Below are positions 2,780 through 23,296 of a DNA stretch of 24,759 nucleotides, in pieces. This DNA comes from a virus. How positions within the stretch are numbered: position 1 is the stretch's first letter; every line of letters begins with the position of its first letter. Below the pieces are notes generated by a model that had not been told where the DNA came from, did no database searches, and was given only the letters and a program-made list of their open reading frames with translations. The DNA lies in IMG/VR virus record IMGVR_UViG_3300041809_000500, positions 1 to 24,759 of that record. One strand, written 5' to 3'. Both the position numbers and the translations under genes were made by a program.

Positions 2780-2881
2780 TTACTCGTGAAGCCCATCGGA
2801 CACGGAGCCGTCGCTAAGCAAGTAATACAGGCTTAGGGACAGGTTCGAGTTGTTCGACAGGCGGTTCATAAATGTCCTCAT
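2780..2881 (-). CDS. Possible small ORF between promoter and terminator, 33 aa
   Basis: The ORF can start at ATG 2879-2881 (33 aa) or at ATG 2867-2869 (29 aa). The second has AGGA 5 nt upstream. It ends at TAA 2780-2782, 27 nt before the terminator at 2722-2753. The composition (MNRLSNNSNLSLSLYYLL) is unremarkable. An alternative frame across the same DNA reads as an acidic, proline-rich end (DIYEPPVEQLEPVPKP) but has no start codon. It may be a peptide, or the unit may be a small RNA. Confidence 0.3.
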   Translation of the reverse strand: MRTFMNRLSNNSNLSLSLYYLLSDGSVSDGLHE

Positions 2882-2891: not shown

Positions 2892-2966
2892 CCCCGGAAG
2901 TTGGTTTTTTGGCAACTGTTTTTCAATTTATTTTTGAATTTCCTTTCCTCTCTGTAGGAGGAACCT

Positions 2967-3749
2967 ATGCCACTGATGAAACTCGGTCGAAAGGCTGTAA
3001 AAACCGACTCAAGAACTCTGAAACTAGCTCCTTACATGAAGACGCTTGCTCCACCGCCATCACTGGTAGATTGGCTGAGGGGCGTCAAATCGTGGGGCAT
3101 GATGCTCAACGGTCCCGACTCCAACGCTCCGGCTGGAGTTCCCTCTGATGGCCTCGGGGATTGCACCATCGCCGCTGTAGGTCATGCGGTTCAAGTGTGG
3201 AGCGGAACGGCAGGAGACAGAGAAATAACTGTAGCCGATTCAGTCATACTCCAATACTACGAACAGTGGGATGGATATGTACTCGGAAATACCTCAACGG
3301 ACAACGGTGGAATTTGCCTTGACGTTCTCAACAACTGGAAAGCCCAAGGATTCCATGGTCACATGCTAACCGCCTTTGCTGACCCGGTGGTCACTAACCA
3401 CACTGAGGTCATGCAAGCGATATATCTCTTCGGTGGTGTCTATATCGGGATGAACGTCCCCAACTACATCATGAACGGTGACACGATTCCAACACTTTGG
3501 AACACTCCCAAAGCCGGGGATGACACAACCATCGCTGGTGGTCATTGTGTGTTCGCTGCTGCCTATAACAATGTTGGGGTGACATTCATTTCATGGGGTG
3601 GTGTCTACAAAATGACGTGGGCTTTTTGGGACATGTTTGTGGATGAAGCACATTGCCTTCTCGCACCAAATTGGATAACCACCAAGGGAGTAACAGTGAA
3701 GGGGTTTAATCTTGCACAACTACAAACAGACCTGTCTCAAATTACCTAA
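2967..3749 (+). CDS. Papain-like fold protein, copy 1, 260 aa
   Basis: This is the first of two tandem paralogues on the plus strand. It starts at ATG 2967 with TAGGAGGAACCT in front. GDCTIAAVGHAVQVW (Cys66) resembles the catalytic Cys helix of papain-like enzymes. GGHCV (His193) followed by VTFISWG resembles their His and Trp region. There is no signal peptide or transmembrane segment. The N-terminal block MKLGRKAVKTDSRTLKL is shared with the second copy. No exact family is recognised. A cysteine peptidase, amidase or transglutaminase-like activity, or an inactive relative, are all possible. Orientation, spacing and terminators mark it as a separately controlled accessory gene. Confidence 0.75.
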   Translation: MPLMKLGRKAVKTDSRTLKLAPYMKTLAPPPSLVDWLRGVKSWGMMLNGPDSNAPAGVPSDGLGDCTIAAVGHAVQVWSGTAGDREITVADSVILQYYEQWDGYVLGNTSTDNGGICLDVLNNWKAQGFHGHMLTAFADPVVTNHTEVMQAIYLFGGVYIGMNVPNYIMNGDTIPTLWNTPKAGDDTTIAGGHCVFAAAYNNVGVTFISWGGVYKMTWAFWDMFVDEAHCLLAPNWITTKGVTVKGFNLAQLQTDLSQIT

Positions 3750-3766
3750 CGAAAGGACAACACAAA

Positions 3767-4504
3767 ATGGCAAACTTGAAGCTAGGCCGGAAGGCCGTTA
3801 AAACGGACTCACGCACTCTGAAACTATCCCCTTATATGAAGACCCTCGCCCCGCCCCCACCTTCGGTGGACTGGACAAAAGGCATTACATCGTGGGGGAT
3901 GATGCTGAATGATACCCTCGGTTGCTGCACAATTGCTGGAGCGGCCCACGCAGTGCAAGTCTGGAGTGCAGAAGTCGGCGGTGAGGTTACCGTACCTGAC
4001 TCAACCGTTCTCCAATACTACGAACAGTGGGACGGATATGTGAACGGTGATTCTTCAACCGACAACGGGGGCATCGAACTCGATGTGCTCAACGATTGGA
4101 AGAAGAGCGGTTTCGCAGGTCACAAACTCATCGCTTACGCCGACCCGCACGTTTACAACCACACCGAAATCATGCAAGCCATCTATCTTTTCGGTGGCGT
4201 CTACATTGGAATGAATGTGCCGAACTACATTATGAGTGCCATCCCGACGCTTTGGGAAGTCCCCACAGCCGGTCAGGATGCCAACATTGATGGTGGGCAC
4301 TGTGTGTTCGTCTGCGGTTATGACAGCGTTGGAGTAACCTTCATCTCGTGGGGCAGCATCTACAAGATGACATGGGCTTACTGGGACATGTTTGTAGATG
4401 AGGCACACTGCATCCTTTCACAGGATTGGATAAACCCCAAAGGTGTAGACGTGCAGGGCTTCGCTCTCGCCCAACTTCAAACCGACCTATCGCAAATCAA
4501 CTAA
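3767..4504 (+). CDS. Papain-like fold protein, copy 2, 245 aa
   Basis: This is a paralogue of the preceding gene with long identical blocks: KLGRKAVKTDSRTLKL, LQYYEQWDGYV, MQAIYLFGGVYIGMNV, and LAQLQTDLSQI at the end. The putative catalytic Cys is Cys54 (GCCTIA) and His is His178 (GGHCV). It lacks the roughly 14-residue insert (DSNAPAGVPSD region) before the Cys that copy 1 has. It starts at ATG 3767 with AAAGGA upstream, 17 nt after copy 1, so both are one operon. The copies have diverged at the DNA level while keeping the active-site region, which suggests selection on both. A terminator follows. Confidence 0.75.
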   Translation: MANLKLGRKAVKTDSRTLKLSPYMKTLAPPPPSVDWTKGITSWGMMLNDTLGCCTIAGAAHAVQVWSAEVGGEVTVPDSTVLQYYEQWDGYVNGDSSTDNGGIELDVLNDWKKSGFAGHKLIAYADPHVYNHTEIMQAIYLFGGVYIGMNVPNYIMSAIPTLWEVPTAGQDANIDGGHCVFVCGYDSVGVTFISWGSIYKMTWAYWDMFVDEAHCILSQDWINPKGVDVQGFALAQLQTDLSQIN

Positions 4505-4519
4505 CCCCACAAACAGTGA

Positions 4520-4545
4520 GGCCACCCAAATCCGGGTGGCCTTTT
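4520..4545 (+). terminator. Rho-independent terminator, plus strand
   Basis: GGCCACCC (4520-4527) pairs with GGGTGGCC (4534-4541) around AAATCC and is followed by TTTT. It closes the two-gene plus-strand operon and faces the convergent minus-strand gene ending at 4571. Confidence 0.9.
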
Positions 4546-8483: not shown

Positions 8484-9257
8484 TTAAGGATGTTCACCGT
8501 TTACTCCTAGTCGTAGATGTTGGTGTACTCGTTGTACCCATCCCTTGAATTCTTCTAGGGTTTGGGCATTCTTCGCCTGATTACAAATTTTACAACACGG
8601 GACGACATTCGTCAAGTAGTAGCCCTGCAAACTATCTACTCTATCAACCCCGTTATACCCGCTCACTCGATGCCCACGACTACTTGGTTTTTTGTAGTTT
8701 TGCAATTCGGGTGCAGAGGCACCACAATAGTGACAGGGTTGTATAACAATTGACTTGAATTGGCTCTCGGTTAGTTTCCATTCTTTATGAGCTATTTTAG
8801 CATTTCTCTTGTAATACTGAATCATCAAATGAATCCGAATCTCTTCATCTGATAGTTTTCTAGCCCTCTTTAGCTCCATTGAAAGGCAACCGCAGCTACG
8901 GGTATTACCACTATAGAGGTTCCCGTAAGGGCGAACGATAGTCGTCCCACAATCGCAAATACACCTATAGTTGTTGACATGTGGCGTAGAGGATTCGGGG
9001 TTATACACATGAACTAACTCAACCACCTTCAGTCGCCCATACCGTTTACCCACCAAAGTACGACGAACCGGACGGCTGTGAGAGCGGCGTTCATCCCCTG
9101 TCAATGGATACCCAGTTAGCCATTTGTGGCAGGTTCCTCTATTCACACCCAACTTCTCAGCAATCAGATAGGTGGGTAGCCTATTTTCTATTCGAAGTTT
9201 CACTGCTTCTTGCTTTATTGCTCTGAGTCTCTCCAGTTTGAATGTTGACTTAGACAT
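8484..9257 (-). CDS. HNH homing endonuclease, 257 aa
   Basis: There are three parts. The N-terminal helix-turn-helix (residues about 25-50: LPTYLIAEKLGVNRGTCHKW) is followed by a central zinc-ribbon-like module (GKRYGRLKVVE, CICDCGTTI, SGNTRSCGCL). The C-terminal HNH nuclease has CHYCGA, GVDRVDSLQGY, NVVPCCKICN, then FKGWV. This is the usual layout of free-standing phage HNH homing enzymes. The start is ATG 9255-9257 with AGAGGATGG upstream. The ATG lies inside a 9-bp stem (9254-9292), which probably limits translation. The gene sits directly 5' of the metallophosphoesterase and ends in the same frame as it, 3 nt from its likely start. Confidence 0.88.
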   Translation of the reverse strand: MSKSTFKLERLRAIKQEAVKLRIENRLPTYLIAEKLGVNRGTCHKWLTGYPLTGDERRSHSRPVRRTLVGKRYGRLKVVELVHVYNPESSTPHVNNYRCICDCGTTIVRPYGNLYSGNTRSCGCLSMELKRARKLSDEEIRIHLMIQYYKRNAKIAHKEWKLTESQFKSIVIQPCHYCGASAPELQNYKKPSSRGHRVSGYNGVDRVDSLQGYYLTNVVPCCKICNQAKNAQTLEEFKGWVQRVHQHLRLGVNGEHP

Positions 9258-15842: not shown

Positions 15843-16403
15843 TCATGGGATGCAGGTATGGATGCTTCTAGTTAATACTCTACTTTTAAGTTCCTCAATT
15901 AGCTCATCAAATGAAAAGCAGGAAAGGGCCCCATATTTTCTACGGTTCTCGGCTTGCTGTGCGGGAGTAGCCCACCGACAGTTTCTCGGCTCGTAATTGC
16001 CATTTACGTTTACCCTATCTAATGTATGAATTGGCGAGGGTTTTGTACCCATGCTATTCATGAAAGAAGAAAATGAATGTCTCCACTCATCGCAAACCAC
16101 TATTCCGCGCCCACCATACCGCTTGTAACCTCTACACTTAGGGTTATAACAACGAGTTATCATAGCGGACCAACTGTAATATTCAGAGGGTCTTAAACCT
16201 GTAGCTAAATATCCGTGCTTATACACCCTACATCCGCAACTGGTTCTATGCCCTGAGACTAGCTCAGAACCAACGATAATACGGGATGCACCACAGGCAC
16301 ACTGACAAACCCAAGCGATTTTTCGATTCACTCGTTTGGGGGATTCATGAAGAACCACCAACCTACCGAACTTCTGACCATTAGTTATATTCAAACGCCT
16401 CAC
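15843..16403 (-). CDS. HNH-type homing endonuclease, 186 aa
   Basis: The N-terminal module GQKFGRLVVLHE, CQCACGASR, SGHRTSCGC (zinc-ribbon-like) is followed by YSWSAMITRCYNPKCRGYKRYGGRGIVVCDEW, FSSFMNSMG, THTLDRVNVNGNYEPRNCRWAT-type residues and QAENRR. This is a common phage family related to HNH/AP2 endonucleases. LDR and N-Y-RNCRW are the catalytic-type motif. The start GTG 16401-16403 overlaps the TGA of the RuvC-like gene. It is inserted between ruvC-like and uvsX. Unlike the other endonucleases here it has no strong hairpin before its start. Confidence 0.85.
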   Translation of the reverse strand: MRRLNITNGQKFGRLVVLHESPKRVNRKIAWVCQCACGASRIIVGSELVSGHRTSCGCRVYKHGYLATGLRPSEYYSWSAMITRCYNPKCRGYKRYGGRGIVVCDEWRHSFSSFMNSMGTKPSPIHTLDRVNVNGNYEPRNCRWATPAQQAENRRKYGALSCFSFDELIEELKSRVLTRSIHTCIP

Positions 16404-18526: not shown

Positions 18527-19174
18527 TCACCCCCCATATTTCAAAGTCGTCTCATTGTTAATACAACGTTTTAACCAATTACAATTAGAACAAAGAAGCT
18601 GATACCCAAAAGAATTGTTTAGTACCTTCTTGAGGTAGGCTTCAACATGAAGCTCTTTTCTTTCGCGATAGCCCCCTCCATTCACGTGGTCTATCTGTAA
18701 TAGACGTTCATCAGTACAGCCGGTTGAGCCATCATCATTAACCCAGCGGCAGTTAGGAGAGGAGCATTTTCCTCCCATTTTTTGTATTACCTCATGTCTA
18801 AGTTTTTGCCTCCGCCGTTGATTATTCAACGCTCGATTACTCAAATACTTCTTATCATATTCCTTCACCTGTTCTGGATGAGAAACTAACCAATTTTTGG
18901 TGTGTTGTTGTTTTTGCTGTTTTCTTTCCTCAGGGGTTCGGTCTTCTCCGGTTCGAGATTTACTTATTTTTGCTCTCGTTTCCTCTGAATGAGACTTACC
19001 AAAGAAAGGATTTTTCTCTCCGGTGCGTTGCCTACCAATCTTTGCCAACCTACATCGTTGCTCATCCGTCTGTTTCCATCCCCGACCCTGCGTACCCCGC
19101 TCTTTACGGGTCAATGCAGTTATCCGTGCCTTCTCTATTATTTCTGGTGTTCTAATATACTTTCCCGCTGGCAT
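18527..19174 (-). CDS. HNH homing endonuclease with NUMOD3 motifs, 215 aa
   Basis: NUMOD3-type DNA-binding repeats occur twice (GWKQTDEQRCRLAKIG and GEKNPFFGKSHSEETRAKIS). The C-terminal HNH nuclease has KCSSPNCRW, LLQIDHVNGGGYRER and YQLLCSNCNWLKRC, with the DH and N residues of the beta-beta-alpha-metal site. It lies between the exonuclease and the Nudix gene. The start ATG 19172-19174 is directly after a hairpin (19181-19199) whose 3' arm contains the only Shine-Dalgarno sequence (AGGGG), so translation is probably restrained. Confidence 0.88.
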   Translation of the reverse strand: MPAGKYIRTPEIIEKARITALTRKERGTQGRGWKQTDEQRCRLAKIGRQRTGEKNPFFGKSHSEETRAKISKSRTGEDRTPEERKQQKQQHTKNWLVSHPEQVKEYDKKYLSNRALNNQRRRQKLRHEVIQKMGGKCSSPNCRWVNDDGSTGCTDERLLQIDHVNGGGYRERKELHVEAYLKKVLNNSFGYQLLCSNCNWLKRCINNETTLKYGG

Positions 19175-20312: not shown

Positions 20313-21155
20313 TCAACGCTCTTGCATTATGTTGGTACAGGCAGCGACCTTGAAACATTGAGGCATTAAACACCCGCATCCTTTTGTGTTACCACTTCGA
20401 AGATTGTCTCCTGATGTGACAAAAGAATTACCACAATGGCAACAGCAGAGCCAACGTGCTTTACCAGATTTGCTGCTTTCTACTCTTTCTAATACTGTAA
20501 CCCCATTGATGGTCTGCCCAATCATATCTACTCTATTTGGAGCGGTGCGACCTTTCAATGAAGCACTGAATTTTTGTATAGTTTCTTTTGAGTGTTTATA
20601 TCCCTCGGGTAAGCCCGAATGGTGATTAGCTAAAACTTTCTGCCAAACCTCTCGCTGTTTCTCTGACCGAGGGGTATTTCTAATAGTCTCTGTCCTCTTC
20701 ATTATGTTCTCAGGGAGTTGACACAATTCAAGACTCCTCAATTGAGCCTCATTTTTCGGCAGGGCCTTCATCTTTACAATGGTCTCAGGGGAGAAGACGC
20801 GACCTGTCATCTTCACCCGCATCATCTGCCTCCATTCCTCTGTATGTTTGCCAGTAAACCCTTCACCCCCTTTACAGATATTGTAACCAACTTCTGGATT
20901 TCTTGTGTCGTAAAGAGCAATGAGCAATCGCTCTAATCGGTCTAGTTCTTCTCGTGTTTGAACCCCCTCAAAAATAGGTTCAATCGGCCACACATCTTTG
21001 GGATGTTTACGCATGGAAGAGAAAAGAATGGACTTCCCCCTTCTGTACTTAGCATGGGACAGCTTATCCTGAAGGTACTTCTTCAGGTTGTGTCCTTTGT
21101 GTTGACCGATATAAACCTTGCCTGTATCTGAATTAGTGATGACGTAGATAAACAC
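20313..21155 (-). CDS. GIY-YIG homing endonuclease, 280 aa
   Basis: The N-terminal GIY-YIG nuclease (FIYVITNSDTGKVYIGQHKG) continues with an acidic helix (EELDRLERLLIALYDT) and NPEVGYNICKGGEG. The middle has NUMOD3-like segments (GKHTEEWRQMMRVKMTGRVF and YKHSKETIQKFSASLKGR). The C-terminus carries the zinc-ribbon-like module seen in the HNH enzymes of this window (WLCCCHCGNSF, SGNTKGCGCL), a mosaic architecture. The start is GTG 21153-21155. Its ribbon of G (Shine-Dalgarno) lies inside the 3' arm of a 13-bp hairpin. It is inserted between the ssDNA-binding and winged-helix genes. Confidence 0.85.
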   Translation of the reverse strand: MFIYVITNSDTGKVYIGQHKGHNLKKYLQDKLSHAKYRRGKSILFSSMRKHPKDVWPIEPIFEGVQTREELDRLERLLIALYDTRNPEVGYNICKGGEGFTGKHTEEWRQMMRVKMTGRVFSPETIVKMKALPKNEAQLRSLELCQLPENIMKRTETIRNTPRSEKQREVWQKVLANHHSGLPEGYKHSKETIQKFSASLKGRTAPNRVDMIGQTINGVTVLERVESSKSGKARWLCCCHCGNSFVTSGDNLRSGNTKGCGCLMPQCFKVAACTNIMQER

Positions 21156-22669: not shown

Positions 22670-23296
22670 TTACTTCACAGATGCAGCGGCGGTGTCTTCC
22701 TGCGCCTTGAGGCTCTGGCGAATCTTGGAACGAACCAGCATACGTTTTACAGCAAGATTCTGACTGGCCTGTGGGTTGAAGAAATACACCAACCCGCTTG
22801 ACGCTGTATAGAAAGTCTGTGCTCCGACGCGACCGATACGAAAGTCAATCGTACTCCACGAAATATTTGGAGTAAGCCGGTAGTTGCTCCCAGCACCAAA
22901 GAGGAAGGTAAACTTGTTTGGCGTAGAGTTGGCAAATGTGGTGTTTCCGGCAGCACCTTCCACAAACACCCCAAATTGGTCAGAGGGGATATTGGTGTGC
23001 TTCACAAGACTGGAAACGTCCGGTACAAAATGAACACCGCCGAGATAGCTACTGAAGCCGCCGCCAGAAGCGAGAACGGTGTACTCCGCAGCGGACAGGC
23101 TGTTGCCCTTCGACGCGCCGAAGTCAAACACATCCAATGACACGGTGGTGATGTTAGCTGGACCCCACGCATTATTGAAGTGAAGGCCGACAGCTTCAGT
23201 CGAGGTTGAAACTACAAGTCCATTGGTTGTTTGTGCTGATAGCGCACCAGCCAAAGAAAGAACTCCTGCAAGGAGCAAAGCAAAATACTTCATCAT
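22670..23296 (-). CDS. Exported beta-rich protein, 208 aa
   Basis: A classic signal peptide (MMKYFALLLAGVLSLAGALSA, cleavage after residue 21) precedes a Gly/Ser/Ala- and Phe-rich body with alternating polar and hydrophobic residues. The repeated strand patterns (VVSTSTEAVGLHFNNAW, FTFLFGAGSNYRLTPNISW, IDFRIGRVGAQTFYTASSG) look like an outer-membrane beta-barrel or a secreted beta-sandwich. The C-terminus is basic and helical (VKRMLVRSKIRQSLKAQED). GGAG lies before the ATG at 23296. It has its own promoter-like box and terminator, so it is a single-gene unit. It could change the host surface, for example for superinfection exclusion, but this is a guess. Confidence 0.75.
   Translation of the reverse strand: MMKYFALLLAGVLSLAGALSAQTTNGLVVSTSTEAVGLHFNNAWGPANITTVSLDVFDFGASKGNSLSAAEYTVLASGGGFSSYLGGVHFVPDVSSLVKHTNIPSDQFGVFVEGAAGNTTFANSTPNKFTFLFGAGSNYRLTPNISWSTIDFRIGRVGAQTFYTASSGLVYFFNPQASQNLAVKRMLVRSKIRQSLKAQEDTAAASVK

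Follow-up and report, generated by a model that had tools for sequence, protein, structure and literature searches.

A plus-strand gene pair among minus-strand viral genes

What do two adjacent and similar genes encode that lie on the plus strand of a viral DNA otherwise read from the minus strand, and what might they contribute to the virus? We analysed the whole stretch of 24,759 nucleotides (IMG/VR record IMGVR_UViG_3300041809_000500; hereafter the window) and compiled the positions of the two genes, their signals and their active-site residues in the table below. Both ORFs, gene A and gene B, are present as given in a preliminary description of this DNA, with an intergenic gap of 17 bases. 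Its claim of own ribosome binding sites and a terminator also holds: each gene is preceded by such a site, and the pair is followed by a hairpin with a 9-10 bp stem and a T run, whose stability is well above that of shuffled sequences. The sequence CTCTGTAGGAGG is kept 5' of the single homologous gene of the related phage contig L005 and a similar hairpin is found 3' of that gene; the terminator is probably usable in both directions. The pair had further been called the lone plus-strand operon of the window. All remaining window ORFs with family matches and all six tRNAs are indeed on the minus strand, whereas a sigma-70 promoter scan of the plus strand 5' of gene A found no separate promoter. 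The immediate neighbours of the pair are tRNA-Tyr genes and minus-strand genes.

Features of the gene pair with their positions in the window and the basis of each assignment.
Feature	Position	Strand	Basis
Gene A (260 aa), papain-fold protein, long active-site loop	2967..3749	+	ORF; PHROG 19005; model
Gene B (245 aa), papain-fold protein, short active-site loop	3767..4504	+	ORF; PHROG 19005; model
Ribosome binding site AGGAGGA, gene A	2956..2962	+	sequence; CTCTGTAGGAGG upstream kept in L005
Ribosome binding site AAAGGA, gene B	3752..3757	+	sequence
Terminator hairpin	4519..4545	.	fold z -5.0 (+), -3.5 (-); hairpin kept in L005
12-residue insert GPDSNAPAGVPS of A, after Asn48 and before the DGLGDC motif	3111..3146	+	A-B alignment; family counts
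Asn48 of A, papain Gln19 position, oxyanion side	3108..3110	+	invariant in family
Cys66 of A, papain Cys25 position	3162..3164	+	alignment
His193 of A, papain His159 position	3543..3545	+	alignment
Ile208 of A, papain catalytic Asn175 position	3588..3590	+	xylellain alignment, family counts
Trp210 of A, papain Trp177 position	3594..3596	+	alignment
Asn48 of B, papain Gln19 position	3908..3910	+	104/104 relatives
Cys54 of B, papain Cys25 position, start of helix 54-69	3926..3928	+	104/104; model
His178 of B, papain His159 position, GGH motif	4298..4300	+	104/104; xylellain GGH aligned
Ile193 of B, papain catalytic Asn175 position	4343..4345	+	Asn 0/104, Asp 8/104
Trp195 of B, papain Trp177 position	4349..4351	+	104/104; xylellain NSWG aligned

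Among the other features of the window, a 29-codon ORF (MNRLSNNSNLSLSLYYLLSDGSVSDGLHE; 2780-2869, minus strand) lies upstream of gene A, adjoins a terminator-like hairpin and is kept in L005 with mostly synonymous changes; it possibly encodes a small phage protein. Five minus-strand ORFs (1844-2482, 8484-9257, 15843-16403, 18527-19174 and 20313-21155) resemble GIY-YIG or HNH homing endonucleases by eye, and the six tRNA genes are four for tRNA-Leu and two for tRNA-Tyr.

Fold and family

AlphaFold2 models of both proteins were confident (pLDDT 93.3 and pTM 0.90 for B, pLDDT 91.0 and pTM 0.90 for A), and the top match in Foldseek was xylellain (3ois, E 7e-13). Using VIA-align, xylellain was superimposed on B with Z 21.9 over 204 residues at 2.5 A and on A with Z 20.8 over 209 residues at 2.7 A, and the next fold matches of both models were papain and cathepsins, many of them proforms, with Z of about 14-19. 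A PDB search with a profile of 76 relatives returned 3ois as the sole significant match (E 2e-6), in an alignment that pairs the Cys, GGH and SWG motifs. Structure prediction and profile search thus both give xylellain as the best match, and together with the residue conservation reported below they bear out the earlier view of papain-like proteins with a paired Cys and His. We regard the papain fold of A and B as practically certain. Given this fold and the xylellain match, neither of the findings that would have refuted this view, a wide separation of Cys and His or a structural family, was obtained. The core helix starts, in both models, at the cysteine equivalent to papain Cys25. In structural alignments, model residues 1-29 (KLGRKAVKTDSRTLKL...) pair with the ends of propeptides, the mature enzymes starting near position 30, which suggests that these residues may form a short pro-segment.

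Both proteins match PHROG 19005 over their full length (A with E 7.8e-29 at residues 5-257, B with E 1.3e-33 at residues 3-242), a family without an assigned function in the library. The preliminary description had recognised no known family, and this no longer stands in view of the PHROG match and the kinship with xylellain. Pfam gave no family for A or B at E 10, Peptidase_C1 included, and only chance matches for 17 family members; NCBIfam gave no useful match for the proteins. Peptidase_C39_2 was matched weakly (E 0.08) in only two of the 17 members, and C39, NlpC/P60 and transglutaminase folds are absent among the listed fold matches, an absence there that does not exclude them. We class A and B with the papain-like superfamily, as relatives of xylellain but not as canonical C1A peptidases, because neither the Pfam match nor two of the residues that define C1A were found. 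A prohead or other structural protease was considered and dropped, as the best fold matches are of papain type and no recurrent link with capsid genes was seen. ADAR-like and interferon structures matched by protein A in the PDB were rejected as chance matches (E about 0.5 or worse). A literature search found no paper on the PHROG 19005 papain-fold family; the literature also mentions a "permuted papain-like amidase" in Alteromonas phage V22.

Active site

Conservation was counted over 104 non-redundant relatives from phage and bacterial chromosomes, with identities down to about 30%. Eleven columns are invariant, including those of Asn48, Cys54, His178 and Trp195 (numbering of B), and the probability that four given positions would all lie by chance within a set of 11 out of 245 is about 2e-6. 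The C1A features equivalent to Cys25, His159 and Trp177 are present in all 104 sequences and aligned with those of xylellain. The Cys (66/54) and His (193/178) positions named earlier for A and B are correct. His61, seven residues past the Cys, is also invariant in the 104 and is unaligned in the relatives from ctsHD2 and from the cultured Komagataeibacter phage phiKM1 (BCZ76003.1). At the oxyanion position of Gln19, Asn is found in 104/104, about 12 residues further from the Cys in the insert-bearing members. The Asn175 position is occupied by Ile (53), Val (21), Leu (11), Asp (8) or other residues and never by Asn, being hydrophobic in 89 of the 104 relatives. The outlying relatives, namely the second, downstream copy of L063 and L128, keep this Asn in an ANSWG motif, and its loss is therefore probably derived. 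As Asn175 is missing throughout the 104 and Gln19 is replaced by Asn, activity could be weak or altered. A and B are nevertheless likely to be active cysteine hydrolases or transferases, and we lean towards their being peptidases.

One relative, L014, carries an intein-like insert directly after the active-site His (L014:5713-7236). The insert starts with Cys, ends with HN, shows a weak LAGLIDADG match and lies between GGH and CVFVPKY. Inteins favour the most conserved sites, and it seems unusual to find one inside an accessory protease of a phage.

Duplication and the active-site loop

The A and B proteins are 70% identical over 259 columns and, as had been noted, the copies differ by an insert before the Cys; it spans 12 residues and lies between Asn48 and the Cys, and two short indels separate the copies as well. 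Their nucleotide differences by codon position are 42/41/133 over 245 codons (dN 0.18, dS saturated), and the corresponding values are 53/41/131 between A and L005 and 40/18/118 between B and L005. This bias towards third positions shows that both genes have been maintained as proteins, and A and B are under purifying selection. The L005 gene is a single copy without the insert, 82% identical to B, and its flanks match the window sequence upstream of A and downstream of B. Among 24 other phage and virus records searched whole (16-463 kb), 23 carry one copy; the sole two-copy record is that of L063, where the second copy is a distant form (L063:5968-7808 is a second tandem pair of the family). 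Thus the A/B pair arose by tandem duplication in the window lineage, or one copy was lost in L005. Duplication as an assembly artefact was ruled out by the divergence between the copies, which amounts to 29% of the aligned bases, and by the single-copy arrangement with the same flanks in L005.

The loop before the Cys occurs in two forms, the short form of B (NDTLGCC) and the long form of A (N-GPDSNAPAGVPS-DGLGDC). Inserts of the type NGPDxNNPPxAPDGLGDC, in which DG replaces DT after the insert, are found in 11 of the 104 members. On a tree built with the insert columns removed, the presence of the insert changes seven times, at least four of these changes being forced by well-supported branches, and the insert DNA differs from clade to clade, which rules out a recent transfer. 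The other phages have one loop form each, and the window pair combines both. In the family tree the branch leading to A (0.26) is longer than that leading to B (0.076). The longer active-site loop of A and its faster divergence suggest that A and B have different substrates, and our guess is that the loop sets specificity. A further idea, which we consider quite unlikely, is that the tandem pair is a two-specificity unit of Asn-less papain enzymes with an Asn oxyanion residue, directed at two targets late in infection.

Distribution and genomic neighbourhood

Relatives were found in four GenBank phages, 72 IMG/VR loci and 42 bacterial genome contigs, many of the latter from Acidobacteriaceae. 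In this family, to which one carrier MAG belongs, nine of 100 genomes gave a strong single match, and several of the copies share one neighbour, a radical-SAM gene of the CofH/MqnC type, next to further ordinary genes. With such surroundings the Acidobacteriaceae gene has the look of a chromosomal resident, not of an obvious prophage gene. A plasmid search with two chromosomal members returned no relatives. In Caudoviricetes, short xylellain-type C1A peptidases have been reported as horizontal acquisitions (PMC10380794).

Some features of individual members were also recorded. In L106 (4701-5957) and L118 (4136-5299), chromosomal members lie 3' of a nucleoside-phosphorylase-like gene (PNP_UDP_1), and the PNP_UDP_1 protein of L118 ends near FKLGRLPR, which resembles the FKLGR start of the papain-fold protein. 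In one clade (L060, L063, L072, L073, L075, L077 and L078) the papain domain is followed by a proline-rich C-terminal tail, which in some members leads to a short conserved end, and several members of the clade have Asp at the Asn175 position. The window itself encodes a secreted-looking protein of unknown family (22673-23296, minus strand), whose homologue in L040 and L042 lies directly 3' of the papain-fold gene and before a lysozyme-like gene.

The genomic context of the relatives is variable and the single-copy carriers are very different phages, in agreement with the earlier comparison to a moron or accessory cargo. All-against-all clustering of the neighbours gave no conserved partner gene, so the earlier idea of an undescribed system finds no support. 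The defence or counter-defence reading fared no better: none of 17 members matched a PADLOC model at E 1, and among 150 neighbour genes no listed PADLOC model matches more than one, leaving no recurrent defence gene. On the viral contigs, TM-like genes make up 41 of 150 close same-strand neighbours and 7 of 99 farther genes (p 3e-5); the latter, which served as the control, come from those contigs too and were called with a simple ORF picker. The close neighbours include phage lysozyme and LLH holin families and also glycosyltransferases and sulfotransferases. An Amidase_2 endolysin and small membrane proteins are encoded 5' of the papain-fold gene in L051, a GH25 endolysin near it in L049, and lysozyme-like genes 3' of it in L042 and L031; an amidase gene overlaps it in ctsHD2, and in three Komagataeibacter phages the overlap, of 4 nt, is with a lipoprotein-like gene. 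Taken together, these neighbourhoods make a late role near lysis or on the envelope the leading guess, and a tentative one. The family is not lysis-specific, because its chromosomal relatives in Acidobacteriaceae sit among ordinary genes.

Proposed function and alternative explanations

We propose with moderate confidence, from sequence comparison and predicted structures, that A and B are clan CA papain-fold cysteine hydrolases, relatives of the xylellain-type C1A peptidases, carried as phage accessory cargo. Both would be cytoplasmic enzymes (no signal peptide is apparent by eye) in which residues 1-29 may act as a short pro-segment. The Cys (54/66) would attack the peptide bond with the His (178/193) as base, Asn48 and the backbone of the Cys would hold the oxyanion, and the Cys-His dyad would suffice in these intracellular accessory cysteine peptidases. 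After their origin by duplication, A and B would cleave different substrates, as late accessory endopeptidases acting around lysis or on the envelope.

A narrower form of this explanation makes the proteins dedicated parts of the lysis cassette, which would cleave, for example, proteins of the envelope or a partner such as a spanin or holin. The enrichment of small membrane proteins and of holin and lysozyme families among the neighbours speaks for it, as do the lipoprotein gene overlap in the three Komagataeibacter phages and the amidase overlap in ctsHD2, but the window copies and several relatives lie far from lysis genes and chromosomal homologues exist, and we consider a role in lysis only to be rather unlikely. 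Another Cys-His chemistry, that of an amidase, a transglutaminase-like or an acyl-transfer enzyme with substrates such as the peptides of peptidoglycan, the side chains of glutamine or small amides, would agree with the location of several relatives next to lysis-cassette genes, with the oxyanion and third catalytic positions that differ from those of true peptidases, and with a papain superfamily that includes amidases and acyltransferases, in which dyad sites with the full core occur (PMC10318531). The closest of the listed fold and profile matches, however, are all C1A peptidases and not amidases or transglutaminases, and in the sequence alignment a conserved DxG/NGG motif falls on the same segment of xylellain. 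This segment is where C1A enzymes bind the substrate backbone. We therefore consider a non-peptidase unlikely.

The hydrophobic Asn175 position (89/104) and the replacement of Gln19 by Asn in all members could also point to a pseudoenzyme, an inactive papain fold that serves as a binding or inhibitor domain and traps a host protein or inhibits a host cysteine peptidase. This is improbable, as a dead enzyme would not have to keep both the Cys and the His, and neither varies in the 104 relatives despite identities down to about 30%; moreover, the family grades into the full triad through the ANSWG-bearing L063 second copy and L128, and papain-like enzymes that are active with a dyad have been described (PMC10318531). 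An equally low probability is given to a protease for anti-defence or host takeover, with one particular defence or regulatory protein of the host as its target. The stand-alone accessory operon with its own ribosome binding sites and terminator would suit such a protease, and a duplication followed by divergence in this loop of the active site would be compatible with an arms race, but the proteins lack a PADLOC match, their neighbours lack a recurrent defence gene, and in some Acidobacteriaceae the gene is a stable chromosomal one.

With the accessory cysteine hydrolase favoured here, a family without a PHROGs function or a Pfam model gains a fold and a testable active site. Furthermore, its members form a natural set of papain relatives in which Asn and Gln are replaced while Cys, His and Trp are fixed, and this set could be used to ask how much of the triad is needed. 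The link to lysis, if true, would suggest that proteolysis takes part in lysis in the carrier phages.

Comparison with known systems

PHROG 19005 is the same family as A and B; it is function-less in PHROGs, and a fold and an active site are proposed for it here. Among its deposited members, UOF82311.1 of the phage isolate ctsHD2 (MW202816), annotated by its depositors as "cysteine protease and beta", is a homologue with 31% identity that keeps the C54, H178 and W195 positions; unlike A and B, it is a single copy, its gene overlaps that of an amidase, and it has Lys at the Asn175 position. With papain and the cathepsins (C1A), A and B share the complete fold and the Cys25, His159 and Trp177 positions, and they differ from them by the change of Gln19 to Asn, by the loss of Asn175, by the missing Pfam Peptidase_C1 match and by having only about 29 residues before the mature start. 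The best fold match of both proteins is xylellain, the C1A peptidase of Xylella fastidiosa, for which no substrate is known either (PMC12090721). A and B share with it the motifs Cys, GGH and SWG at 15-20% identity. They differ from it at the oxyanion position, which is Gln in xylellain and Asn in the A/B family, and at the residue before SWG, which is Asn in xylellain and Ile, Val, Leu or Asp in the family.
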